This document shows positions 1,934 through 15,620 of a DNA stretch of 20,273 nt, piece by piece. Every line of letters begins with the position of its first letter. Positions within the stretch are counted from its first letter, which is position 1. This stretch comes from a virus. The notes beneath the pieces were generated by a model. It searched no databases and had not been told where the DNA came from. It saw only the letters and a program-made list of their open reading frames with translations. Position numbers and translations under genes: made by a program. The stretch covers positions 1 to 20,273 of IMG/VR virus record IMGVR_UViG_3300042467_001997; one strand, 5' to 3'.

Positions 1934-2395
1934 GTGGTCCACCGCAACGCCTCCATCGTCGACGGCCTCCGCGAGGGCGAACGAATGGCCGCCGAACTTC
2001 TCGCCCGCGGCAAAACCTGCAGAGAAGTATCGCGCGCCTTAGGTATAGCAGAAAAGACCCTCTATAACTGGCGCAAACGCCCCGCCGTTCAACGTGCTAT
2101 CTACGCCCTCCAGCAAGAGCTGATCGACATCTCCGAGTCCAAAGGACTCGCCCTGATGCCAGACGCCATCGCCACGCTGACCTCGATCATGCACGACGAG
2201 AACGCCCGCGCCAGTGACCGCATCGCCGCCTCCCGCGCCTTGCTGAACGGTGCCGCCGCCTACCAGGAGCGCAAGCTGCTGGAGCGCACCGTGTCGGACC
2301 TGGAGTCGCAGATCTACGGCCTGATGCAGATCCCCGAGGAGGACGGCCCCGAGCTCCTGCCCTCCGCAGATCCCGCCGACCCCGAGGACGCCTAA
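1934..2395 (+). CDS. terS: Terminase small subunit (putative)
   Basis: The 153-residue protein probably recognises phage DNA and hands it to the large terminase. Residues about 20-50 (ELLARGKTCREVSRALGI, then EKTLYNWRKR) form a clear helix-turn-helix of the kind found at the N-terminus of small terminases. A helical middle, probably for oligomerisation, and an acidic C-terminus follow. It lies directly upstream of the large subunit. The long form starts at GTG 1934 without a visible Shine-Dalgarno sequence. An ATG at 1985 has GAGGG 7 bases upstream, keeps the whole helix-turn-helix and could be the real start. Confidence 0.75.
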   Translation: MVHRNASIVDGLREGERMAAELLARGKTCREVSRALGIAEKTLYNWRKRPAVQRAIYALQQELIDISESKGLALMPDAIATLTSIMHDENARASDRIAASRALLNGAAAYQERKLLERTVSDLESQIYGLMQIPEEDGPELLPSADPADPEDA

Positions 2396-2407
2396 GGCCC
2401 CGCGCCG

Positions 2408-3889
2408 ATGACCTCCTCCCTCTCGCAGCTCCAGCGGCGCGCCGACCGCCTCCGCCTCGAGCTGGCCCGCCGCGCTGCCCGCGCCGCGAATTTCGACCCG
2501 GCCGTACCGCCAACCAAGCTCCCCGGCGTCGATGACTGGCCGTCGTTCGCACGACGCACCTGGATCCGCACGGCCGGCACGGTGGCTCCCTTCGACCCGT
2601 ACCCCTACCAGGAGGCCCTGGTCGAGAGCATCAACGCCCACCCCAACACGATCATCAACAAGTCGCGCCAGATGGGCGCCTCGGAGACGGTCTGCTCCTA
2701 CCTGCTGTGCCGCGCCCTCACCGAGCGCGGCTTCGCCGCCGTGGTCTTCTCCAAGACGCAGCAGGACGCCTCCGAGCTTGGCCGCCGAGTGCGCGCCATG
2801 GCCAACAGCATCGAGGGCGAATCGATCCGCTATCTGACGGACAGCAACACGCAGATCGCCATCGAGGGGCGCGGCACGCTGTACTTCCTGCCGGCGTCGC
2901 CCCGCGCGGCCCGCGGCATCCCCAGCTGCTCCGTCCTGTTCATGGACGAAGGTGCGTTCCTTGACGGCGCTGCCGAGATCTACCGAGGCGCCATGCCGAC
3001 CCTGTCGATGGTGGGCGAGGCCGCCAAGGTGATCGTCACGTCAACCCCCGACACCGAGCTCGACTGGTTCGGCCAGCTGTGGCACCAGGGCACGCCGGTC
3101 GACTGGTACGACTACGTGCGCCGCCACGAGATCGCCGCGCTGAACACAGCCCTGGCCGAAGTCCAGGACTCCTGGAACCGGGTCGCGATCCACTACAGCC
3201 AGCATCCGATCTACGGCGCCGACCCGCAGTGGGCGCAGCGGACCCGCGAGTCCCGCCGCATGACCCAGGCCGCATGGGACAGCGAATACGAGCTGGCCTT
3301 CGGTGCGACCGACACCCAGATCTACCCAACAGACCTGATCCGCCGTGCCACCCGCGGCCACTGGCGCGAGTGCGGCTCGATCGGCCGCACCTACGTGATC
3401 GGCATCGACCCGAACGCCGGGGGCAACGACTACTTCACCGCTCTGGTGCTGGACATCACCACCACTCCCTACGAAGTGGTGGCCATGTACCACGAGAACG
3501 GCAAGAGCACTGATTACAGCTTGCGCCATGTGAAGTCCCTCATTGAGGATTACCTACCCGAGCGGGTAATCGTGGAGAAGCAGGCGATGGGAGCTGTGAT
3601 CGCAGAGGCGCTCGCCAACATCCTGCCCAACTATGCTATCGAGACGTTCAGCACTAGCCGCCCCAGCAAGGTAGTAGCAACCGACCGCATCCTTTACTAC
3701 CTCGAGCGCGACGAGCTGATCTTCCCGAACGGCGCCATCCCCAACGAGCTCCGCGCCTTCCAGCAGAAGGAATCCGGAGCCCGCGAAGCAGCCTCAGGCG
3801 CGCATGACGATACTGTGATGGCGTTGGCCTTCGCCTGCAGCGCCGTCCCCGAGACCCCGAATACTGCGGGGTTCTTCGCACATATTTAA
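2408..3889 (+). CDS. terL: Terminase large subunit (ATPase/nuclease)
   Basis: This is the packaging motor, which hydrolyses ATP to drive DNA through the portal and cuts the concatemer. Visible motifs are a Walker A-type loop NKSRQMGASE (about residues 84-93), Walker B VLFMDE (176-181, Asp180 and Glu181) and coupling motif TSTPD (211-215). The RNase H-like nuclease has YVIGIDPNAGG (Asp334), IVEKQ (Glu390) and HDDTVMALAF (Asp467/468). The length of 493 aa is normal and all key acidic residues are present. The start ATG lies 12 bases after the small subunit stop. Confidence 0.95.
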   Translation: MTSSLSQLQRRADRLRLELARRAARAANFDPAVPPTKLPGVDDWPSFARRTWIRTAGTVAPFDPYPYQEALVESINAHPNTIINKSRQMGASETVCSYLLCRALTERGFAAVVFSKTQQDASELGRRVRAMANSIEGESIRYLTDSNTQIAIEGRGTLYFLPASPRAARGIPSCSVLFMDEGAFLDGAAEIYRGAMPTLSMVGEAAKVIVTSTPDTELDWFGQLWHQGTPVDWYDYVRRHEIAALNTALAEVQDSWNRVAIHYSQHPIYGADPQWAQRTRESRRMTQAAWDSEYELAFGATDTQIYPTDLIRRATRGHWRECGSIGRTYVIGIDPNAGGNDYFTALVLDITTTPYEVVAMYHENGKSTDYSLRHVKSLIEDYLPERVIVEKQAMGAVIAEALANILPNYAIETFSTSRPSKVVATDRILYYLERDELIFPNGAIPNELRAFQQKESGAREAASGAHDDTVMALAFACSAVPETPNTAGFFAHI

Positions 3890-4530: not shown

Positions 4531-6372
4531 GTGGAGCTGCTTGAGTCCGATAAATTCCGGAACGATATAAGTACTAACAGGAATGACGGCGCACTTGTTA
4601 ACGTCCTCACCGGCATGGGTGTGAGCGGAAAAGACAAGACAACAGCAACCTCCGTCGGCTCCAGCTACCTCCTAACGCAAGGCGAACTCGAAGCCCTCTA
4701 CAGCCACGGTGTCCCACGTCGTTACGTCGACGCCATCGCCGATGAGATCCTTCGCCACCGAGCCACAATCACGATCGGTGGCGCCGACCCCAACGCCCAG
4801 GACGTCATCACCAGCTTCGAGGAGTACCTGAAGGTCACGCAGTTCCACGCGTCCCTGTCTGAGGTGATCAAGCTGCAGCGCCTCTACGGCGGCGCCGGCC
4901 TCGTGCTGCTCATCGACGACGGCCTCCCCGAGGACGAACCCGTCGATGCCACCCGCATCCGCTCGGTCCGCGGCTACGTCCCCCTGTCCCGCCACGAGCT
5001 GATCCCCGAGGACTTCACGATCACCGACTGGTCCAAGCCCAGTCACTACCGGATCACAACAAGTCAGCGCATCACCCCGGAGCAGGACGGCCCGTACGTC
5101 AACGTCCGCATCCACAGCTCACGCGTCGCCCGGTTCGACGGCCTGTACCTGCCCTGGCGTGTCCGAGCGCGGAACACCGGCTGGGGCCACAGCGTTCTGC
5201 AGCTGATCTGGGAGTCGTTCAAGCGCTACGAGTCGGCCATGTCGGGCCTGGAGTCGATGACCTCCGACGCCGACCTGTTCGTCCACAAGATCCCCGGCCT
5301 GTTCCAGCGGATCGCCTCCGGCAACGAGAGCGACCTGCGCAAGCGCCTGGAGGCCAACAACCTCAGCCGCTCGGTGTACGGCGGCATGGTGGTCGACGTC
5401 GAGGAGGACCTGCAGTTCCTCAACCGCGCCCTGGCCAACATCGCGAGCGCAACCGACCCGTTCGTCAAGGATCTGCAGGCCGCCACCGGCTGGCCCGCCT
5501 CCATCCTGATGGGCGACTCCCCCGGCGGACTCGGCAAGGAGGGTCGCTTCGAGGAGCGCGTCTGGGCCTCGCTGGTCGAGCAGTGGCAGGAGGTGTACTG
5601 CCGCACCCCGGTCACCGAGGTGTTCTCCTACATCCTCGCCGCCCGCGAGGGCCCGCTTCGCGGCAGGCCGCCGGCGTCCTGGGCGACCCACTTCCCCTCG
5701 GTGTTCACCGAGACCAACAGCGAAAAAGCCGCCCTGCGCCTGCAAATGGCCCAGGTCGACGCCCAGTACGTGAACCTCGGCGTCCTCAACGCTATCGAAG
5801 TACGTGAATCCCGTTTTGCCGGAACGGAGTACAGCATCGAGACCACGCTGAACGAAGTCGTCTCGGAGCAGCTCGTCGCGCAAGCCGAAGCGTCGTTCCA
5901 GAGCCAGATGATGGGCTACGAAGCGCAGGCCCAGGCGCTGCAGAACCCGCCGGCGCAGGAAGAGCAACCACCCGAGGCCGGAGCTCCCCCCGAGGCCGAC
6001 CCGGCCGCGAAGCGCCGCGACGTCTTCGACAACTACGAGGCGCACGGCCTGCGGATCCGCGTCACGCACACGGCCGGTGAGATCCGCGCCGGCCACCTTG
6101 TCGGGCCCGACGGGCAGCGCACGGACTCCAGCGCCAACGCCCCGCTGATGGTCTTCGGGCCCAACCGCGCACGTAGCTACAAGCTGTACCGCGCTCGGTT
6201 CGATGCGGTGGATGGCGCCCTGCTCGAGGGCCCCTATGTGACAGGCTTCGCCTCACTGCGCACAGCCAAGCAAGGCGTGGCCGCTCTATTCCCTCGGCAG
6301 AATGTGGCAGGGCTGTCCCCCGTCCCCGAGGGCGAACTTGAAGCCCTCCGCGCCGGATGGGAGGTGTACTGA
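4531..6372 (+). CDS. Portal protein (DUF1073-like) with extra C-terminal domain
   Basis: The 613-residue protein follows the large terminase and precedes the MuF block, the usual place of the portal, the 12-subunit ring through which DNA passes. The N-terminal part (RNDGALVNVLTGMG, then YVDAIADEILR) and the core SDADLFVHKIPGL, LNRALANIAS and ASILMGDSPGGLGKEG resemble DUF1073-type portals. After a Pro/Glu linker (about residues 465-490) there is a separate domain of about 120 residues, beginning near HGLRIRVTHTAGEIRAG and ending GFASLRTAKQGVAALFP. The GTG start at 4531 has no clear Shine-Dalgarno sequence. An ATG at 4615 would cut into the conserved N-terminus. Confidence 0.88.
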   Translation: MELLESDKFRNDISTNRNDGALVNVLTGMGVSGKDKTTATSVGSSYLLTQGELEALYSHGVPRRYVDAIADEILRHRATITIGGADPNAQDVITSFEEYLKVTQFHASLSEVIKLQRLYGGAGLVLLIDDGLPEDEPVDATRIRSVRGYVPLSRHELIPEDFTITDWSKPSHYRITTSQRITPEQDGPYVNVRIHSSRVARFDGLYLPWRVRARNTGWGHSVLQLIWESFKRYESAMSGLESMTSDADLFVHKIPGLFQRIASGNESDLRKRLEANNLSRSVYGGMVVDVEEDLQFLNRALANIASATDPFVKDLQAATGWPASILMGDSPGGLGKEGRFEERVWASLVEQWQEVYCRTPVTEVFSYILAAREGPLRGRPPASWATHFPSVFTETNSEKAALRLQMAQVDAQYVNLGVLNAIEVRESRFAGTEYSIETTLNEVVSEQLVAQAEASFQSQMMGYEAQAQALQNPPAQEEQPPEAGAPPEADPAAKRRDVFDNYEAHGLRIRVTHTAGEIRAGHLVGPDGQRTDSSANAPLMVFGPNRARSYKLYRARFDAVDGALLEGPYVTGFASLRTAKQGVAALFPRQNVAGLSPVPEGELEALRAGWEVY

Positions 6373-9170
6373 TGGAGAACCAGCACCCCTTGACGCCCGA
6401 AGGCTTCCGCACCGCGGCGTACCTGGCCGCCCGAGAGCGGTTGGACGCACGCAAGACCACGCGCAACGTGCAGTGCAACCCACCCAACGTGCGCTGCGGC
6501 AATCGCTGCCAATCGCCGACGTGGGACTGCCGACTCAAAGGTCAAGGCGCTGATCCACATCTGCGTGCGGTCAAAACCGATCCGCTCGGTGGACTTGCCA
6601 ACATCCAACGCGGCTTTGGTCGCATCAGCAAAGGCATTGTAAAAGGCAACTTCTCAGAAGTTGAAGGTGGTAAGCGTGCGATCATCCGAGGCTCGGTCAA
6701 GATCGTCCCAGGCAATATCCAGCAGAAGAAAGAACTGCAGAAAAAGCTAGAAGATCGCACACGCGCAATCGGCATCGGCCTCGCGGTAGTAACTGGTGGC
6801 TTAGGCATCCACGCGTTGCTGATGAAGAGCGACACTTTTGGTTACCGCGATGGTGTCGGCGCCAACATTAACAATGCCACGCGGCTTGGTGTTAGCCGTG
6901 TGCTGGACGCCATTCCCGGTATTGGCTCCAAGCGAGCGCGGGTACGCGCAGCTGTCTCTGCCGGCGTTCAAGAGCAGCTCACCCGCCAGGCCAACCCCGC
7001 CTCAGCGGTTCTGACCGGCCAGCTTGCGCGGACTCAGGTCACCGGCGCTGATGCAGACGCCCGAACCAACCTCGTGAAGGCGCTGCAGACCGTCAACGGC
7101 AAGCATGGCGGCGCAAACTCCGACTTCGACGCCTGGAACCGGGAACATCAGAGCGCTTTCTGGGGTGTGACGCGTATCGAGAACGGTGTAGGGCTTACTG
7201 GTGACAAACGTGCAAGCGTCTTTGCTCGCCCTGCTACTGATGAGTTCCTTGCGCGGCAGTTCGGCCTCCAGGGGGACGATGTACTCACAAGTGGTGCGAT
7301 TAAAGACGCAGTAGAGCGCCGCCTCGGTGAGTACAAGTCCGATCTCCTCGATCTGGCGCAACAGCAGGGCTACCGAGTGACGAGTGTACGAGGTGGTGCT
7401 CGCACGCTTGCCCCCGCTGATCAACGTACCTTCATCCAGGGAGTAGTACGAGGCACACTGCCTACAGGTCAGAGCAATAATCGTGTGCGCACACAGCTCA
7501 CACAAAGCCTAGAAGAGACACTAACAAATAGCCCCAAGACCCGAGCCAGAGCTGTCTACAACGAAACATTTGGTACTTTCAATGATTTCTACACGTCAAG
7601 AGCATCCGCCATCGAGAATGCCTCTTCCTCCTCATTTTTCTCGCGTGAAATGCGGCGCGCGGGGGTGGAACAGACGATGATCGACGGGCGTCAGTCGCGC
7701 GCGCAGTATGTCCTCGGGCTGGTGCGCCCCGGCAGCCAGGTCCAGGGACCATCTCACGCCGAACTCGCGTTGCGCGAGTACCACGCTCGTGAAGTGGCGC
7801 GCACGCCCCGCAGCATGTACACCATCAGTGATCGCCTCGCGGTCTCCGCCGCCTCCGAGATCGAGGGGCGCACTGTCGGCCGAAGCGAGGCATTTCAGAT
7901 CCTGGAGCGGGAGGGTTTCACCGGCGCGGTCCCCCGCACCCAGCCGGCGCGCCAACGCCAACGCCCCTCCACCGAGGGCGAGGCCGCCTACCAACTGATG
8001 CGGCAGAACCCCGGTATGACGTTGGAGGCGGCCAAGCGCGAAGTGAAGCGCAACCGCGGTGATGCCGAGCTCGTCCGCACGGCCACGTACCTGGCCGCCC
8101 GCGCCGATTTCAAGGAGGACCCCCGCCTGGGAAAGCCCTGCGGCGCCTCGCACATCCCGAAGGCGCATGAGTGTCGGAAGGGGCGAGGTGCGGACGCCCC
8201 CGATGCCCCCGAGCGCGCTAAACCCGCCCACATGGGGCGCAAGATCGCCCTGGCCACTGTTGTCGCTGCTGTCGGTGCGATTGGTGTGACGGTCGCTCTC
8301 GACGCGCACCGTTTCTACAAAGCCGAGGGGTTACCGAATCCGCCTGGATACCGCGAAGCCGTCCGTGCAGCGCAGGCCGGTGACCCCAAAGTCAGTTACG
8401 ACGTGGCCATTGGTCTTCACTACGACAAAGTCACCGCAAAGGAGGGTTGGAAGCCGGGGGATCTGGTTTACACCCGCTTTGGGTCAGGCAGCGCCAAGCA
8501 AGACCCCACGGCCCACTTCGCCGTGTACATGGGCAAGCAGGGGGCGCGGCATCAGTTCGCTGACTTCGGTGTCGCCGACAGCGCGCTTCGCGAGGGCCAC
8601 ATCAATCTGTACGAGTACGGACCGGGCGCAAAGGGTGTTGCTCCCTTCGTGTTCGCCAAAGCCCCTGCGCTGAAAGGAACTACGGCGTTCAGCTCATCCG
8701 AGATCGAGCAGCGTGTCTTCGCCAGCCTCGGTGCCCGCCTGAAGTACGACGCGCTCGACAACAACTGCGAGACCTGGGCCCGGATGATCACCACGGGTCA
8801 GGCACGCTCCGCTCAGGCGGAACGGCTCAGCGTCCTCACCCGCTCGCTGTACCGCTACTACGACCGCAAGACCGCAGGCGCCCCACCGAAGGACATCCCA
8901 TCGGTGAAGCAGCAGGCGCGCGTCCTGGACATGCAAGCCCGCATGGCCGCCGGCGACAAGAGCGCTCGCGCCGATCTCCGCGCGTTTCAAGCGCTAATCA
9001 AGCAGGGCAAGCGCACCGACGAGATGCAGCAGGACACCGAGGGCGAACTGCCTACACCGGCGCAGCTGCTCGCGGGATCTACTTCCGACGCCGACGCCGT
9101 CGTTCGCACGAAGCTCTACCTCATGTTGCTGATCCGCCTCGGCGAAGCCCGCGTTTATGGACCTGCTTGA
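6372..9170 (+). CDS. Large modular protein: two Cys motifs, two membrane segments, LRAT-like domain
   Basis: The 932-residue product starts at ATG 6372, inside the portal stop, with GGGAGG about 8 bases upstream (an in-frame ATG at 6357 is less likely). In order it has Cys35/42/46/53, a hydrophobic stretch at about 133-151 (IGIGLAVVTGGLGIHALL), a long helical middle, Cys590/601 (CGASHIPKAHEC), a second hydrophobic stretch at 624-645 and an LRAT-like domain at about 665-815. That domain shows PGDLVYTRFG, His715 (HFAVYMG), His727 (HQFADF) and Cys799 (NNCETWA), matching the His-His-Cys order and the 12-residue His spacing of LRAT/HRASLS proteins. Such enzymes are thiol acyltransferases or phospholipases of the NlpC/P60 superfamily. 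It is probably virion-associated. Parts of bases 6540-7660 are lower in GC. Confidence 0.8.
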   Translation: MENQHPLTPEGFRTAAYLAARERLDARKTTRNVQCNPPNVRCGNRCQSPTWDCRLKGQGADPHLRAVKTDPLGGLANIQRGFGRISKGIVKGNFSEVEGGKRAIIRGSVKIVPGNIQQKKELQKKLEDRTRAIGIGLAVVTGGLGIHALLMKSDTFGYRDGVGANINNATRLGVSRVLDAIPGIGSKRARVRAAVSAGVQEQLTRQANPASAVLTGQLARTQVTGADADARTNLVKALQTVNGKHGGANSDFDAWNREHQSAFWGVTRIENGVGLTGDKRASVFARPATDEFLARQFGLQGDDVLTSGAIKDAVERRLGEYKSDLLDLAQQQGYRVTSVRGGARTLAPADQRTFIQGVVRGTLPTGQSNNRVRTQLTQSLEETLTNSPKTRARAVYNETFGTFNDFYTSRASAIENASSSSFFSREMRRAGVEQTMIDGRQSRAQYVLGLVRPGSQVQGPSHAELALREYHAREVARTPRSMYTISDRLAVSAASEIEGRTVGRSEAFQILEREGFTGAVPRTQPARQRQRPSTEGEAAYQLMRQNPGMTLEAAKREVKRNRGDAELVRTATYLAARADFKEDPRLGKPCGASHIPKAHECRKGRGADAPDAPERAKPAHMGRKIALATVVAAVGAIGVTVALDAHRFYKAEGLPNPPGYREAVRAAQAGDPKVSYDVAIGLHYDKVTAKEGWKPGDLVYTRFGSGSAKQDPTAHFAVYMGKQGARHQFADFGVADSALREGHINLYEYGPGAKGVAPFVFAKAPALKGTTAFSSSEIEQRVFASLGARLKYDALDNNCETWARMITTGQARSAQAERLSVLTRSLYRYYDRKTAGAPPKDIPSVKQQARVLDMQARMAAGDKSARADLRAFQALIKQGKRTDEMQQDTEGELPTPAQLLAGSTSDADAVVRTKLYLMLLIRLGEARVYGPA

Positions 9171-10029
9171 GCGCTACAACCGCCTCCTCCACACCTCCGA
9201 GAGCGGCACCATCACCATGCTCAACCGCGTCCTCGACGCGAGTTTCAACCGCCTGGTCCACCGCGCTCGGGTGCACATGCAGGCGGGCTACAACGACCCC
9301 GCCCAACGCAACCTGGCCCTGTTGCAGGAGTTCCGGATGCTGGTGCCGTCGTTCAACCCCAACGCCGTGGACGGCTACGACCGCATCCTGCGCAACCTCG
9401 TGGGCACCGCCGGGCGCTTCGGTATCACCGTCGCCGATGAGCTCACCGGTCAGGTGAAGACCGGCCCGCGGGTCGACGTCTCCATACCGCTGGAAGCGAC
9501 GATCGCCGCCGCCGGCCAGGCCAAGGGCTACCTGCGCCGCCACGGCGAGAAGTTCGCCGAGACCGCTGCCGAGACCGTCGCCCAAGGCATCGCCGAAGGC
9601 CGCCCCACCGACGCCATGGTGCAGGACATGCGCGCTCGGCTCGGTGTGGTGAAGTCCCGCGCTGAAGCGATTGTGCGCACCGAGTCACTGCGCGCCTACA
9701 ACGACGCTTCGAACACGTACTACGCCGCGCAGGGCATCGAGCTGGTGATGTACTACGCCACTGCTGACGACCGGCTCTGCCCGTTCTGCGCCCCGAGAGC
9801 GGCCCAGATCTACCGCCGCGCCGAGATCAAGGTGCCGCTGCACCCGCGTTGCCGGTGCTACCTCGCCCCGTGGGACGCCGACGTGGCCTCGATGGACCCG
9901 GACTACGCATCTATGCGGAAAACGCATAAGTCCGACGTCGCCAAAGCATTCGCCAGCGCCGGCACCGAGCCTGTTTCTCTCAACAAGGCCGCGGTGTTCG
10001 AGCAACTCGCACCAACGCCGCTGTCCTAG
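9157..10029 (+). CDS. MuF-type head morphogenesis / minor capsid protein
   Basis: The 290-residue protein has the Mu gpF signature. Helical residues 1-150 are followed by RAEAIVRTESLRAYNDAS, TADDRLCPFC (Cys208, Cys211) and PLHPRCRCYLAPW (His229, Cys232, Cys234). This minor head protein is usually encoded just after the portal and binds near it inside the capsid. The four cysteines and the histidine probably bind metal. The ATG overlaps the end of the preceding gene by 14 bases, so the two are coupled. A gap of 57 bases without visible signals follows. Confidence 0.92.
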   Translation: MDLLERYNRLLHTSESGTITMLNRVLDASFNRLVHRARVHMQAGYNDPAQRNLALLQEFRMLVPSFNPNAVDGYDRILRNLVGTAGRFGITVADELTGQVKTGPRVDVSIPLEATIAAAGQAKGYLRRHGEKFAETAAETVAQGIAEGRPTDAMVQDMRARLGVVKSRAEAIVRTESLRAYNDASNTYYAAQGIELVMYYATADDRLCPFCAPRAAQIYRRAEIKVPLHPRCRCYLAPWDADVASMDPDYASMRKTHKSDVAKAFASAGTEPVSLNKAAVFEQLAPTPLS

Positions 10030-10086: not shown

Positions 10087-10971
10087 ATGCCCGCTGCCAC
10101 CAAGAAGCGTCCACCGATGGAGATGGAGCCCGGCGAGGGCAAAGCCCACGAGAGCGCCGAATCCGCCGCTGAAGAGACCCGCGAAGGCGCCGAGCCCGAC
10201 GACGCCCCGAAGGCCAAGACAAACCGCAAGCGCAGCGCGAAGAACGCCAAGGCCACCAAGGCTCCGATGGACGGTGGCATGTACGGCAAAAAGCCGATGG
10301 ACGGTGAGGGTTGCAACTGTGGCAAGCGCAAGGCTAAGTGCGACGGAAGCTGCGGTAAGAAGATGGACCGCAACGACGCCCTGACCCCTCAGGAGTACCT
10401 CGCCGCTTGCGATCTCGGCATCCAAGGCCGCAGCCGCTCCTACATCCGCGCCCGCCTCGACGCCGCCGCGCGCCTGGACCTCAAGTGCGGCAACAGCTCC
10501 ATCTCCGAGGGCGAAAAGTGCACTAAGGGGCAAGCACAAAAGGTGGTGGGCTATGCCAATCCTTCTGGTAGACCGCTGTCCGGAAAACAGATCAGGCAGA
10601 TTGAGCGCAGCATCACAGCAGAAGAAGCTGCAACGGGTAAAAAAGTAAACATTTCACCAGAGCAAGCAGCCTTGCTCATCCAGACGAGAGGAACACAAAG
10701 TCGCAGGTTCGTAGCATCCCAGTTGCGTGGAGCCTCTAACAAGGATCTCAGGAGCGCAATCCAGGCGAGCGCTAGCTCTACAGATCCCATGCGACAAGCT
10801 GTGCGCAAAGTCGCAAAACGTGAAGTATTCAACCGCCGTGTTACTCGTGGGGCCACGCTACTTGGTGCCGGCCTTGCTTTGGGTGCAGTAGCGGCTAGTT
10901 CAGCGCCGCCTCGCCGCGACTCCGTCTACGCTGCCGGCTTCTCCCCCGAGCTCGACCAACTCGCGATCTGA
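10087..10971 (+). CDS. Cys-motif putative membrane protein with C-terminal tag, 294 aa
   Basis: No named family is recognised. Residues 1-75 are charged, Lys/Glu-rich and low complexity. A compact Cys cluster follows (GCNCGKRKAKCDGSCGKK, Cys76, 78, 85, 89), possibly a small metal-binding knuckle. Next are a helical segment (ALTPQEYLAACDLGIQGRS), the CG-x3-I-x5-C motif CGNSSISEGEKC (Cys134 and Cys145), a lower-GC helical stretch, a Gly/Ala-rich hydrophobic segment at about 255-275 and the tag RRDSVYAAGF close to the C-terminus. Motif and tag are shared with the neighbouring genes, suggesting a common origin and location, probably in the virion or host membrane. Confidence 0.75.
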   Translation: MPAATKKRPPMEMEPGEGKAHESAESAAEETREGAEPDDAPKAKTNRKRSAKNAKATKAPMDGGMYGKKPMDGEGCNCGKRKAKCDGSCGKKMDRNDALTPQEYLAACDLGIQGRSRSYIRARLDAAARLDLKCGNSSISEGEKCTKGQAQKVVGYANPSGRPLSGKQIRQIERSITAEEAATGKKVNISPEQAALLIQTRGTQSRRFVASQLRGASNKDLRSAIQASASSTDPMRQAVRKVAKREVFNRRVTRGATLLGAGLALGAVAASSAPPRRDSVYAAGFSPELDQLAI

Positions 10972-10974
10972 GCC

Positions 10975-11469
10975 GTGGTACTTACTCCGACTTTAGTACG
11001 CAGCGATGTTTTCATTGGCAATAAAAAGCTGAACTGCGGTCCTGGCTCCAAGCCCTGTGGCAACGCCTGTATCCCCAAAGACCACAAGTGCAGGGCTTCG
11101 TGGAACAAGCCGGTCAAGCTGGCCGCCGGCGCAGCGGCTCTTACCGGGGCCGCAATCGTTGGCACTGCGTTTCTCCACCCGAGAGCGAACATGCGCAGCG
11201 CTGCTCGTGCTGTGATCGACCCGACCCTGCAGACCGGCTTCGGCATAGGCAATGTGGCCCGCGGCAATTGGGCCGGGGCTGCAAAGAACGCCGCCAACGT
11301 GGCAGCTACAGGCCAGGATCTCGGTAAGAACCTCGGCACCCTCGCTAAGGGCTACGGCACCGACATCAAGGGGGCGGTCAACCGAGGGCGTAACGCTGCG
11401 TTCAAGTGGCGCAATCACCGCCCCGCAAAGCGTCGCGACTCCGTCTGGGCCGAGGGCTTCGCACCATGA
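10975..11469 (+). CDS. Cys-motif putative membrane protein with C-terminal tag, 164 aa
   Basis: The GTG start lies 3 bases after the previous stop, with no strong Shine-Dalgarno sequence. The N-terminus MVLTPTLVRSD resembles that of the next gene (MTLTPSTLRLD). The fullest version of the motif is here, CGPGSKPCGNACIPKDHKC (Cys21, 28, 32, 39), followed by a Gly/Ala membrane-like helix at about 47-67. The rest is amphipathic and Gly/Ala-rich and ends KRRDSVWAEGFAP, matching the tag of the preceding protein. I know of no function for this arrangement. It could be a small virion or ejection-associated membrane protein with disulfides or a bound metal. Confidence 0.75.
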   Translation: MVLTPTLVRSDVFIGNKKLNCGPGSKPCGNACIPKDHKCRASWNKPVKLAAGAAALTGAAIVGTAFLHPRANMRSAARAVIDPTLQTGFGIGNVARGNWAGAAKNAANVAATGQDLGKNLGTLAKGYGTDIKGAVNRGRNAAFKWRNHRPAKRRDSVWAEGFAP

Positions 11470-12317
11470 CGCTCACCCCGTCCACGCTCCGCCTCGACGC
11501 CCCCGGCCGCGCCTGCGGCCAGGGCTTCATCTCCGCTGGCAAGACCTGCCACCAGCGCGGCGCCTTCCCCAAAGGCAAGGCCATCGCCGCAGGACTCACC
11601 GCTGGCGTTGTCGGCGCCGCTCTCCTGCACAAAGGCAGCCGCAAAGCCATCCTCGGTGCACCCGGTGCTGCACAACGCAGCGCGCAGCGTGCCGTCACCG
11701 AGGTCGTCCACCGGGCCACAGCGCGCAAGCCATCAATGCGGCTGACCCCCGGCGCCTTGGAGGGCATCCGCCCCCAATCCAAGACCCAGCGACTCCACAA
11801 CGAAGCGCGTAGCGCCAACCAAGCCGCCGAGCGCGCCATTGGCCGCGCAGCACAGGCTGAGGTCGAACGAGGAATGGCCGTCGGCAAGGCCATGCACGCC
11901 GCCGGCAAGGCCACCCGCGCTTCCCTACGCAGCGGCATGCGGACCCACAACCTCACCGTGGAGAAACTGCGCCGCCGGTACGAGCCCAACTACCGCAAGA
12001 CCGGCCGCCGGGACAACTTCATCCAGCACTACGCCCCAGTCCTGCTGCAGCCGCCGACACGCCGCGACGCTGAGGACGGCAAGAAGTACGCCAAGACCGT
12101 CACCAACCCCGAGACCGGACGCAAGAACACCGTCCGCTACGGCGCCAAGGGCTACAAGATCGCCCCCGGCACGGACAAAGGCGACCGCTACTGCGCTCGC
12201 AGCTTCGGCGACATGAAATCCGAGGGCTACGACTGCTCCGGCGCTGAGCGCAACACGCCGCTCTGCCTCTCGAGGGCGAAGTGGAAGTGCTCGGGCAAAG
12301 CCAGTCGCCGCTCCTGA
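11466..12317 (+). CDS. Cys-motif putative membrane protein with basic Cys-rich C-terminus, 283 aa
   Basis: The ATG at 11466 overlaps the previous stop (ATGA) and is preferred over an in-frame GTG at 11406. Residues 1-54 have MTLTPSTLRLD, CGQGFISAGKTC (Cys17 and Cys28, same 11-residue spacing as the neighbours) and a hydrophobic Gly/Ala helix at 38-54. A long, basic, Ala-rich helical region follows. The last 80 residues differ: NPETGRKNTVRYGAKG, APGTDKGDRYCARS and CLSRAKWKCSGKASRRS. This tail recalls short motifs of the type 'vrFGakg...R.sfrARh...' seen in other phage structural genes, a comparison made from memory. It lacks the RRDSV tag. Confidence 0.75.
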   Translation: MTLTPSTLRLDAPGRACGQGFISAGKTCHQRGAFPKGKAIAAGLTAGVVGAALLHKGSRKAILGAPGAAQRSAQRAVTEVVHRATARKPSMRLTPGALEGIRPQSKTQRLHNEARSANQAAERAIGRAAQAEVERGMAVGKAMHAAGKATRASLRSGMRTHNLTVEKLRRRYEPNYRKTGRRDNFIQHYAPVLLQPPTRRDAEDGKKYAKTVTNPETGRKNTVRYGAKGYKIAPGTDKGDRYCARSFGDMKSEGYDCSGAERNTPLCLSRAKWKCSGKASRRS

Positions 12318-12327
12318 GCAGACTGAG

Positions 12328-12492
12328 GTGAAACCCGCCCATCCCCCCGAGCACGCCTTCACCCGCCTGTGGTTCTGGAACAGCGCCGGCGCTCAGACTC
12401 TGCTATGCCCAGTGCACGAAGCTGCAGACATCAAGCGCCGCCTAATTGCCGAAGGTGCCGTTGTCTGGCACACAGAAGTGTATAACGCCTAG
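12328..12492 (+). CDS. Very small hypothetical protein, 54 aa
   Basis: A GTG-initiated frame begins 10 bases after the previous stop and ends with TAG at 12490-12492. The product starts with KPAHPPEHAFTRLWFW after the initiator and ends GAVVWHTEVYNA. Codon use is GC-rich at third positions like the neighbours. Its end overlaps by 4 bases the end of the leftward regulator gene. No motif is recognised, and the call rests on position and codon use only. Confidence 0.45.
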   Translation: MKPAHPPEHAFTRLWFWNSAGAQTLLCPVHEAADIKRRLIAEGAVVWHTEVYNA

Positions 12493-12704
12493 ATCCCTAC
12501 AATCAATTGCTCCAGAGTAATCCTGTACAACTCAGCCAAAGCAAACAACTTACTAAGCGATACCTCAATCTCACCATGTTCCAACCTGCTGTAAGCAGCT
12601 TGGCTGACTCTTAGCACCTCTGCAACTTGCATTTGAGTCAGTCCAGCAGCAATACGCAAGCCACGAATTCTGCGACATAGCTCTAGCTGCCTGTGAATGG
12701 CCAC
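12489..12704 (-). CDS. XRE/Cro-family helix-turn-helix regulator, 71 aa
   Basis: The small protein is a single Cro/C1-type DNA-binding domain. It has LCRRIRGLRIAAGLTQMQVA, then EVLRVSQAAYSRLEHGEIE (recognition helix around SQAAYSRLE), then SLSKLFALAELY and a short end. The start is GTG at 12704. It is leftward inside an otherwise rightward structural operon and lower in GC, so it looks inserted. It could repress the adjacent rightward promoter region, act as a phage regulator, or be an antitoxin-like moron. No toxin partner is evident. Confidence 0.8.
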   Translation of the reverse strand: MAIHRQLELCRRIRGLRIAAGLTQMQVAEVLRVSQAAYSRLEHGEIEVSLSKLFALAELYRITLEQLIVGI

Positions 12705-12765: not shown

Positions 12766-14061
12766 ATGGAAACGTCTGTTTCTCGTTACGACTTCGCGCC
12801 CATCACGGGAAGCGAAACCACCGAGGAGGGTTACCTCCGCGTCTGGTGTCGTGCGGCGCGCACGGGGACCCAGCTCTACCGACGTGCAGACGGCTCTCAA
12901 GTTCGGGAATACCGTCCGCCGGAGGAGGTCAGCAACCCTGACTCCCTCACGACGTTCGGCATGAAACCCGCGACCTGGGGCCACCCCCCGGTCCTGCTCG
13001 ATTCGGCGAACACCAAGCAGTTCCAGATCGGCTACTCCGGTAGCCAGGTCCGGTACAACGACGGTTTTGTCGAAGTCGCCCTGGTTGTTACCGACCAAGA
13101 CGCCATCGAGAAGATCAAGCGCAAGGACGCCACCGAGGTCTCCGCCGGCTACAAAGTCGACTTCGACCCCACCCCCGGTCTCACCCCCGAGGGCGAGGAG
13201 TACGCCGGCGTCCAGCGCAACATCCGGGTCAACCACATCGCCATCGTTCCCCGCGGCCGGGCTGGCCCGGAGGTTCGACTCCTAATGGATCGCATGGATG
13301 CGGCCGACGCTGTCTCCTTCGATCCCGAGTGGATCCGCGACAGCGGATCGGCGCTCCAGCCCTGTCAACCTGCATCTCCCGTTATGGCCACCGTCAAACT
13401 CGACGGCCTGGAGATCGATCTGCCCGCAGAAGCAGCCACCGCGGTCCAGTCCTTCGCACGGGACATGGGGCGCCAACTCAAAGCTGTGACTGACGAGCGC
13501 GACGAGCTTTCTTCCAAGCTCGACGCCCTCCAAGCAGACCTCGACTCCGTCTCCTTCGAGAAAGAAACCGCTGAAGGCCGCGCCGACGCCCTCGAAGAGC
13601 GCCTGGCCGAAATCGACGCCGGCGCAAGCCGCATCGACACCGCCGAGCTCGATCAACTCGTCGCCGCCCGCCTCGCCACCCTGCAGAAGCTGGCTCCCGC
13701 ATTCGCCGAAGACTTCCACTTCGACGGCATCGACGACGCCGCTCTGTACACCCAAGCCTTCGAGAACCTCACCGGCTCCGCCCCCCGCGAAGACGCTGAG
13801 CCCGCCTACATCCAGGGCGTCGTGGAGGGCATCCTTGTCGCTCGCGCCGACTCCGAGGACGACAGCAACGAAGAGGAAGGCGATGACACCGAGGACGCCG
13901 GCGACGGCGAAGCCAAGGAAGACTCTGCCGACCGCGCTGACAGCACCGCCAACCTGCGCGATGCCCTCAAGGGCGCCGGCCGCAGCCCCGCTTCCCCGGT
14001 GGACACCTACCGCGCGAAGCAGGCGGATGCCTGGAAGCGTCCCCTCACTGCCACCAAGTAA
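12766..14061 (+). CDS. DUF2213-type prohead protease/scaffold protein
   Basis: Residues about 1-175 match the DUF2213 pattern: RYDFAPITGSE, GMKPATWGHPPVLLD, KRKDATEVSAGYKVDF, TPEGEEYAGVQRNI and NHIAIVPRGRAGPEVRLL. Such proteins are thought to be serine proteases of the capsid assembly core. Ser126 in EVSAGY and His157 in NHIAIV are candidate catalytic residues. Residues about 215-300 are a charged helical, coiled-coil-like region, and the Asp/Glu-rich C-terminus is typical of scaffolds. The gene directly precedes cement and capsid genes. Capsid cleavage itself is not visible from sequence. No clear Shine-Dalgarno sequence precedes the ATG. Confidence 0.88.
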   Translation: METSVSRYDFAPITGSETTEEGYLRVWCRAARTGTQLYRRADGSQVREYRPPEEVSNPDSLTTFGMKPATWGHPPVLLDSANTKQFQIGYSGSQVRYNDGFVEVALVVTDQDAIEKIKRKDATEVSAGYKVDFDPTPGLTPEGEEYAGVQRNIRVNHIAIVPRGRAGPEVRLLMDRMDAADAVSFDPEWIRDSGSALQPCQPASPVMATVKLDGLEIDLPAEAATAVQSFARDMGRQLKAVTDERDELSSKLDALQADLDSVSFEKETAEGRADALEERLAEIDAGASRIDTAELDQLVAARLATLQKLAPAFAEDFHFDGIDDAALYTQAFENLTGSAPREDAEPAYIQGVVEGILVARADSEDDSNEEEGDDTEDAGDGEAKEDSADRADSTANLRDALKGAGRSPASPVDTYRAKQADAWKRPLTATK

Positions 14062-14702: not shown

Positions 14703-15620
14703 ATGACCACCGAAATTCGCAACGACGAGGTCGGCGTCTTTCTCGCCCGTGAGCTCGAGACCATTCTCAGCCGCACGTTCGAGGTCGAGTACGCCGACAT
14801 CAAGTACAGCCAGCTGATCCCTATCTCCACCGAGGTCGGTCCCGGCGCCGACTCCTTCACCTATCGCGTCTTCGACAAGCAAGGCTCGATGAAGGTGATC
14901 AGCGACAAGGCCCAAGACCTGCCCCGCGCTGACGTGCTCCGCAAGGAAGTCACCTTGCCGGTTCGCAGCATCGGCGGCTCCTTCGCCTACACCATCCAGG
15001 AAACCCGTGCCGCCGCCATGGTGCCCGGCATGAACCTGGAGCAGCGCCGCGCCAACGCGGTGCGCCGGGCCTACGAGGAGAAGATGCAGGAGATCGCCTA
15101 CTTCGGCGACGCTGCCTCCGGCATGAAGGGCTTCTTCAACAACGACCAAGTCGACAAGCTTGTCCCCGACAAGTGGTTCGATGGTGCTAGCACCACCACC
15201 GACGAGATGCTGTCGTTGCTGAACGAGGTGCCCACCCGCCTCGTACAGAACTCCAACATGAAGGAGATGCCCAACACGATGCTGGTGCCCTACAACGTGT
15301 ACCGCATCATCTCCACCACCCCGAGGTCGACCACCTCGGACACCACCGTGATGGAGTTCTACCTGCGCACCAACCCGATGATCACGGCGATCGAGCCCAT
15401 CAACGAGCTCGAAGCCTCCAAGTCGGGTGGCGTCCTGTCCAAGGACCGCATCCTGGTGTACGACCGCAGCCCGGACAAGCTGCAGCTGCACGTCCCGCAG
15501 CCGCTGGAGTTCCTGCCTCCCCTGCGTCAGGCCCTCGAGTTCACGGTGGCCGCCCACGCCCGCGTTGGTGGTCTCTCGCTCTACTACCCCAAGAGCGCGA
15601 TGGTGCTGGAAAAGGCTTGA
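14703..15620 (+). CDS. Major capsid protein (DUF2184-like)
   Basis: The 305-residue protein follows the cement gene with GGAG 9 bases before the ATG. It has the HK97-fold capsid layout of the DUF2184 family: an N-terminal helix FLARELETILSRTFEVEYA, the extended E-loop region (SFTYRVFDKQGSMKVI, SFAYTIQETRAA), a long helix NLEQRRANAVRRAYEEKMQE, GMKGFFNN, and a C-terminal domain ending VAAHARVGGLSLYYP. Very strong C/G at third positions fits high expression. No internal protease site is obvious. Confidence 0.9.
   Translation: MTTEIRNDEVGVFLARELETILSRTFEVEYADIKYSQLIPISTEVGPGADSFTYRVFDKQGSMKVISDKAQDLPRADVLRKEVTLPVRSIGGSFAYTIQETRAAAMVPGMNLEQRRANAVRRAYEEKMQEIAYFGDAASGMKGFFNNDQVDKLVPDKWFDGASTTTDEMLSLLNEVPTRLVQNSNMKEMPNTMLVPYNVYRIISTTPRSTTSDTTVMEFYLRTNPMITAIEPINELEASKSGGVLSKDRILVYDRSPDKLQLHVPQPLEFLPPLRQALEFTVAAHARVGGLSLYYPKSAMVLEKA

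Follow-up and report, generated by a model that had tools for sequence, protein, structure and literature searches.

The choice of head cargo in tailed phages outside the T4 group is little known, as cargo rarely bears a sequence signal. In phage T4, according to the available part of PMC9026906, the internal proteins IPI, IPII and IPIII are basic, carry N-terminal capsid-targeting sequences with about 10 conserved residues that are cleaved by gp21, and have been proposed to be a changeable head cargo. For phage P1, the available text of PMC9024508 places the signal of DarB at the N-terminus, within 30 residues, and gives no consensus among the Dar proteins. Polyvalent proteins and MuF polymorphic toxins form a third group, in whose descriptions (available parts of PMC5512222 and PMC5576092) no shared C-terminal peptide is mentioned; domain sets of the LRAT, kinase-like and NlpC kind have been proposed there to be packaged and injected (PMC5512222).

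The stretch of DNA analyzed here as a whole (hereafter the window; an IMG/VR virus record of 20,273 bases) contains a head module, in which two adjacent proteins, A and B, end in nearly the same ten-residue peptide, hereafter the tag (Table 1). As in the T4 sequences known from PMC9026906, a short conserved end is found on divergent basic proteins, but the tag is C-terminal (85 of 86 scan matches, see below), differs in sequence and, as judged from the protease linker, shows no sign of cleavage, and its loading function is one that we infer. The tag also resembles the P1 DarB signal, both being short terminal signals for internal head proteins (a putative role for the tag), yet its consensus is plain, while none was found among the Dar proteins in the available text of PMC9024508. 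With the polyvalent proteins and MuF toxins, as far as these are covered by the available parts of PMC5512222 and PMC5576092, the block encoding A and B shares the portal/MuF neighbourhood, a constant part combined with exchangeable domains, kinase-like and peptidase-type domains (in P4 and C), and portal fusions; however, those systems consist of single large proteins or MuF fusions, whereas A and B are small, separate and tagged. The MuF protein of the window has no extra Pfam domain.

Table 1. Coordinates of the features of the window
Feature	Position	Strand	Remarks
TerL	2408-3889		
Portal protein	4531-6372	+	Pfam PF06381, E 4.3e-50
P4, 937 aa	6357-9170	+	cysteine motif resembling the N-module present twice; C-terminal domain exchangeable
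LRAT-like domain of P4	8511-8804	+	match below Pfam cut-off
MuF-type minor head protein	9157-10029	+	Pfam PF04233, E 4.4e-12
Gene A, 294 aa	10087-10971	+	disordered N-tail, LTP helix, cysteine module, exchangeable body, tag
Constant N-terminal part of A	10375-10530	+	LTPQEYLAACDLGIQ helix region and cysteine module, residues 97-148
Tag of A, long (Y) type	10912-10968	+	RRDSVYAAGF and tail SPELDQLAI; stop 10969-10971
Gene B, 164 aa, GTG start	10975-11469	+	LTP peptide, cysteine-rich hairpin, hydrophobic helix, helices, tag
N-terminal module of B	10975-11094	+	LTPTLVRSD ... C..GSKPCGNACIPKDHKC
Tag of B, short (W) type	11431-11466	+	RRDSVWAEGF and AP; stop 11467-11469
Overlap of B stop and C start	11466-11469		stop of B and ATG of C as ATGA
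Gene C, 283 aa, no tag	11466-12317	+	N-module LTPSTLRLD and cysteine motif; C-terminal PLCLSRAKWKCSG domain
Conserved 54-aa protein (MKPAHPPEHAFTRLWFWN...)	12328-12492		also 3' of C in several relatives
Small helix-turn-helix-like gene	12489-12704	-	next after the 54-aa protein in the window
DUF2213 head protease with scaffold-like C-terminal part	12766-14061	+	ends AWKRPLTATK
MCP	14703-15620		

When recomputed, the two copies of the tag (10912-10941 and 11431-11460) were identical at 24 of 30 bases, and both are in frame with their genes, as the original prediction had read them; the stop follows after 9 residues in A and after 2 in B. Neither strand of the window has a further 30-mer that agrees with the first copy at 21 or more positions, and with a tag profile A and B scored 39 bits, the next-best of 5,857 positions in the window proteins being a chain end with 2 bits. 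The consensus is mostly RRDS[VI][YW]AxGF, followed by 2 residues (W type) or by 9 (mostly Y type, SPELDQLAI). A degenerate DNA pattern for the ten tag residues (serine = TCN) was run over 2.9 million viral contigs and yielded 76 stretches with 86 matches (counts before dereplication), of which 85 were C-terminal, with a distance to the stop of 2 (n = 30), 4 (n = 1) or 9 residues (n = 54); the frame of the lone internal match (L121) continues into another domain. The serine-AGY form of the pattern, used as background control, had 3 matches and none of them was C-terminal. A shorter pattern, applied to ten long records totalling 640,014 bases, had 14 matches spread over 9 of them (reversed control: 0), and there the tag was confined to one gene block. 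No tag was found in the INPHARED isolates, where two Gordonia matches at E 2 were judged to be chance, nor did a PDB sequence search return anything for it, and no account of it was found in the open-licence literature. From GTDB at least 119 stretches were retrieved, and the 80 listed were nearly all one frame of a conserved gene in Burkholderiales and relatives; the matches listed have L or F at position 6 and no fixed stop distance and are off-target, and as this gene dominates them the scan is uninformative on cyanobacterial prophages.

In order to follow the tag through related phages, 180 loci and the window were reduced to 85 distinct sequences (89 after a later scan). A broad end-anchored pattern fixing [YWF]AxGF retrieved 112 tagged proteins in 67 of the 89 dereplicated loci, many of which are fragments that do not span the region. 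Because this pattern fixes A, G and F, proteins were also selected without regard to the tag. An N-terminal signature served to recognize A-family members, and of the 57 that have a stop, 55 carry the tag at their end; in one exception (L010) it is internal, 61 residues before the end, and in the other (L181) the frame lacks it and a tagged frame lies nearby, so that this gene may be broken. Likewise, 42 of 49 N-module proteins without a C-type domain are tagged, the remaining seven being four proteins like a shortened C, one P4, one with YVDGF and one short B remnant (IAEGFAP), while the tag is present in none of the 23 C-type proteins. At the positions left free in the pattern, the 109 unique tags have D in 100, S in 98 and V, I or M in 106 cases. 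Y with a 9-residue tail is the commonest type (57), followed by W with 2 residues (39), W with 9 (11) and others (5); Y with 2 residues was not seen. In each of the 30 loci that include both MuF and protease, family A lies between these two. The tag is strictly C-terminal and restricted to the portal-to-protease block of one clade. The tag is neither missing from the homologues of A nor scattered over random internal sites, and its expected recurrence at C-termini in related phages was thus confirmed by both the 55 of 57 A proteins and the 85 of 86 scan matches.

The tagged proteins follow a common plan, a constant LTPxTLRxD peptide with a cysteine module (together the N-module), then a variable body, then the tag, the version in A being longer. 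The similarity between LTPTLVRSD of B and LTPSTLRLD of C, already pointed out in the original prediction, is real and belongs to this shared module, which continues into a cysteine motif and is present in A and P4 as well. The cysteine module itself (CG.x.I.....C or C.....CGNxCI.....C) is present in at least four adjacent genes of the window, e.g., at 10477-10530, and twice in P4. Among 22 A proteins the mean pairwise identity was 84.5% for the LTP helix, 81% for the cysteine module, 63% for the tag and 14% for the body, i.e., the tag is more conserved than the bodies, as had been anticipated; only 22 of 231 pairs of A bodies were related by BLAST, and 209 were unrelated. The 110 bodies of all tagged proteins fell into 21 groups, 15 with several members, of which 6 occur on both an A carrier and a short carrier and 10 with more than one tag type, i.e., the tag is portable. 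Of 44 proteins picked for diversity from the 112, six have a DnaJ domain (best E 2.1e-10), which in four proteins read singly stands directly before the tag; other Pfam matches in this set were five single weak ones, PHROGs gave 14 mostly unnamed families and PADLOC one match (E 0.00036). A small NRARNG-type domain, standalone and untagged in three cyanophages outside the clade as Syn5 gp50, S-CRES1 gp96 and S-CBS2 gp45, ends in the tag or a close variant in all five standalone copies of the tag-bearing clade, a sixth copy without tag lying within a fusion protein (L302). From the NRARNG-type and DnaJ cases it follows that one end has been attached to unrelated domains. The original observation is real and broader than first seen, and it extends far beyond a local duplication; a recent duplication of A into B was rejected, as the bodies are unrelated and the codons no closer within a phage than between phages.

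Neither A nor B belongs to a Pfam or PHROG family. NCBIfam had nothing for A and for B only a match at E 0.017, far below its cut-off, while a PDB sequence search with B gave only E 0.4 or worse and a fold search with the B model nothing below E 0.28. The AlphaFold model of A was weak (pLDDT 58.6), and in both models the tag is placed in low-confidence tails (residues 150-163 of B, 265-283 of A), although the low confidence may also stem from the thin alignments (11 and 22 sequences). The tail with the tag is perhaps flexible, as expected of a docking peptide.

Several characteristics of the tagged proteins and their neighbours would suit head cargo. Every one of the 103 bodies examined has a net positive charge (mean +0.11 per residue, all > +0.05), as the T4 internal proteins are basic too (PMC9026906), and the value of +0.05 is also exceeded by 59 of 67 P4 and 57 of 58 C proteins, by 7 of 68 MuF proteins, and by none of the TerL, portal, scaffold, decoration and major capsid proteins. 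Strong hydrophobic segments are found in 28 of the 110 tagged proteins, in 57 of 67 P4 and in 18 of 58 C proteins, as against 5 among 259 sequences of TerL and the other head proteins. The portal of Synechococcus phage S-CBS4 contains, as a fusion, a domain known from C-type proteins (38.8% over 85 aa, best E 7e-8; DUF5872 in L083), and P4 and C-type proteins have exchangeable LRAT, kinase-like and NlpC matches, several of them below the Pfam cut-off. C and P4, encoded in the same block, lack the tag, which is thus not needed by every protein encoded there, and the N-module, which these two also carry, is the more widely shared element.

The closest named portal among those listed is that of S-CBS4 (39.9% identical), and because of this the host of the window phage is likely cyanobacterial; the uncultured phages of the tag-bearing clade are probably cyanobacterial as well. 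S-CBS4 and its IMG/VR relatives share with the window a related portal (40%), the protease/scaffold and the MCP, but in contrast to it no A, B, C, P4, N-module or tag was found in them. Of 61 S-CBS4-like loci (697,410 bases, many partial) 59 have a portal, 24 a protease, 17 an MCP and 19 a decoration protein, and none has the tag, the N-module, A, B, C, P4 or this MuF; INPHARED contained no A and no N-module either. As the sister clade has portal, scaffold and MCP but no tag, these three alone create no need for it, and the partner of the tag, judged from this distribution, should be clade-specific, or a clade-specific part of the portal, scaffold or MCP.

In our view the tag is best explained, with a probability of about one half, as a C-terminal signal by which a swappable set of head proteins, basic and in part hydrophobic, is docked or loaded; packaging into the prohead would be its likeliest role, to judge from where the genes lie, from the fusions and from analogy. 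A, B and their relatives would be one family of modular head-region proteins, the C-terminal peptide serving as a flexible docking tag that is bound during head assembly by a clade-specific partner; any body placed before it would be recruited to the prohead or portal vertex and would later leave with the DNA. More tentatively, the tag could be a C-terminal virion-loading code, in which an exchangeable arsenal, some of it with hydrophobic segments or J-domains, is marked in two dialects (W + 2 and Y + 9) that may send cargo to two different sites. If true, this would be, to our knowledge, the first family of capsid-targeting signals at the C-terminus whose consensus can be read, candidate cargo could be listed from sequence alone in an uncultured phage clade, and the ten-residue peptide could be used to try loading chosen proteins into phage heads.

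The tag could instead be a functionless relic or a recombination joint, with cassette junctions looking alike because new bodies recombine in there. This would fit with the shuffling of bodies between carriers and tag types and with the regular layout of the junctions, as the next start follows a long tag after 6-7 bases in 62 of 68 cases and overlaps a short tag as ATGA in 34 of 39. It is nevertheless improbable, as the residues are kept while the synonymous codons of the tags are equally diverged within one phage (identity 0.58, 61 pairs) and between phages (0.60, 5,825 pairs), which recent copying would not give, and a small protein outside the usual array is also tagged. As synonymous codons are no closer within a phage than between phages, the tag, by this codon comparison, is kept as a peptide and not as DNA, i.e., there is selection on the protein and no recent copying; the 40 residues upstream of the tags are only 9-11% identical without gaps. 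The serine of the tag is almost always encoded by TCN (95 of 109 fourth codons), which argues for one origin rather than convergence.

More probable than a relic, though less so than loading by the tag, is that the N-module with its LTPxTLRxD peptide and cysteines is the virion-loading signal, the tag acting otherwise, e.g., by attaching to a host factor or membrane once delivered, or by setting the order of ejection. The N-module is common to P4, A, B, the accessory proteins and C, the tag being found only on A, B, the accessory and the small NRARNG-type proteins, and the T4 and P1 signals are N-terminal (available parts of PMC9026906 and PMC9024508); on the other hand, at least two standalone small tagged proteins (L008 and L171) have no LTP peptide, and the confinement of the tag to one gene block also speaks against loading by the N-module. 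Protease processing, one of the roles originally suggested, was not supported, although the broader idea of a conserved terminal signal was, the tag being strictly C-terminal, attached to unrelated bodies and better conserved than those of A. A cleavage site of the DUF2213 head protease would agree with the gene neighbourhood and with the linker after the protease domain, which reads RMDAADAVSFDP and ranks fifth of 5,857 positions in the tag-profile scan, but this sole resemblance is not conserved past DAADAV in the 34 relatives listed and a cut would take off a short tail only, making such a role very improbable. Least probable of all is that the tag works within the cell, as a C-terminal degron or as a peptide recognized by chaperones: the position of the tag and the J-domains directly before it in some proteins are in its favour, but C-terminal degrons are read from the last residues, the extreme C-termini here are of two unlike kinds (xP and mostly xLAI), and the tag occurs only within the block of head genes. 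Mimicry of the scaffold end (AWKRPLTATK) was rejected, as windows with the scaffold tryptophan all scored negative and reached at best rank 294 of 5,857, and so was the C-terminus of MuF (LNKAAVFEQLAP) as a tag variant, as it is conserved in its own right and dissimilar to the tag by profile.

Some further observations concern individual proteins of the region. The C-terminal half of P4 is exchangeable, being LRAT-like in the window and giving LRAT, RIO/ABC1-like kinase or NlpC matches in relatives, and by its domains P4 is a candidate polymorphic injected protein without MuF fusion. In the protein encoded at 12766-14061, an invariant ASPVMATVKLDGLE opens the scaffold part after a variable linker (around residue 205) and may be a candidate internal start for a separate scaffold product. 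Several C-type proteins (L068, L083, L091, L040 and L168) have another repeated C-terminal end, RRDxxLTPGKSSA, which is possibly a second tag or reads into the start-like LTP peptide. The tagged ORF of L171 (469 aa) consists of two tandem body-tag units, with tags at residue 235 and at the C-terminus, like fused cassettes. Finally, in the fusion protein of L302 (frame 1939-3495) the NRARNG-type domain is combined with a cysteine module, and a further stretch contains HELGH and DEAFAEYF, which we take to resemble a zinc peptidase motif.
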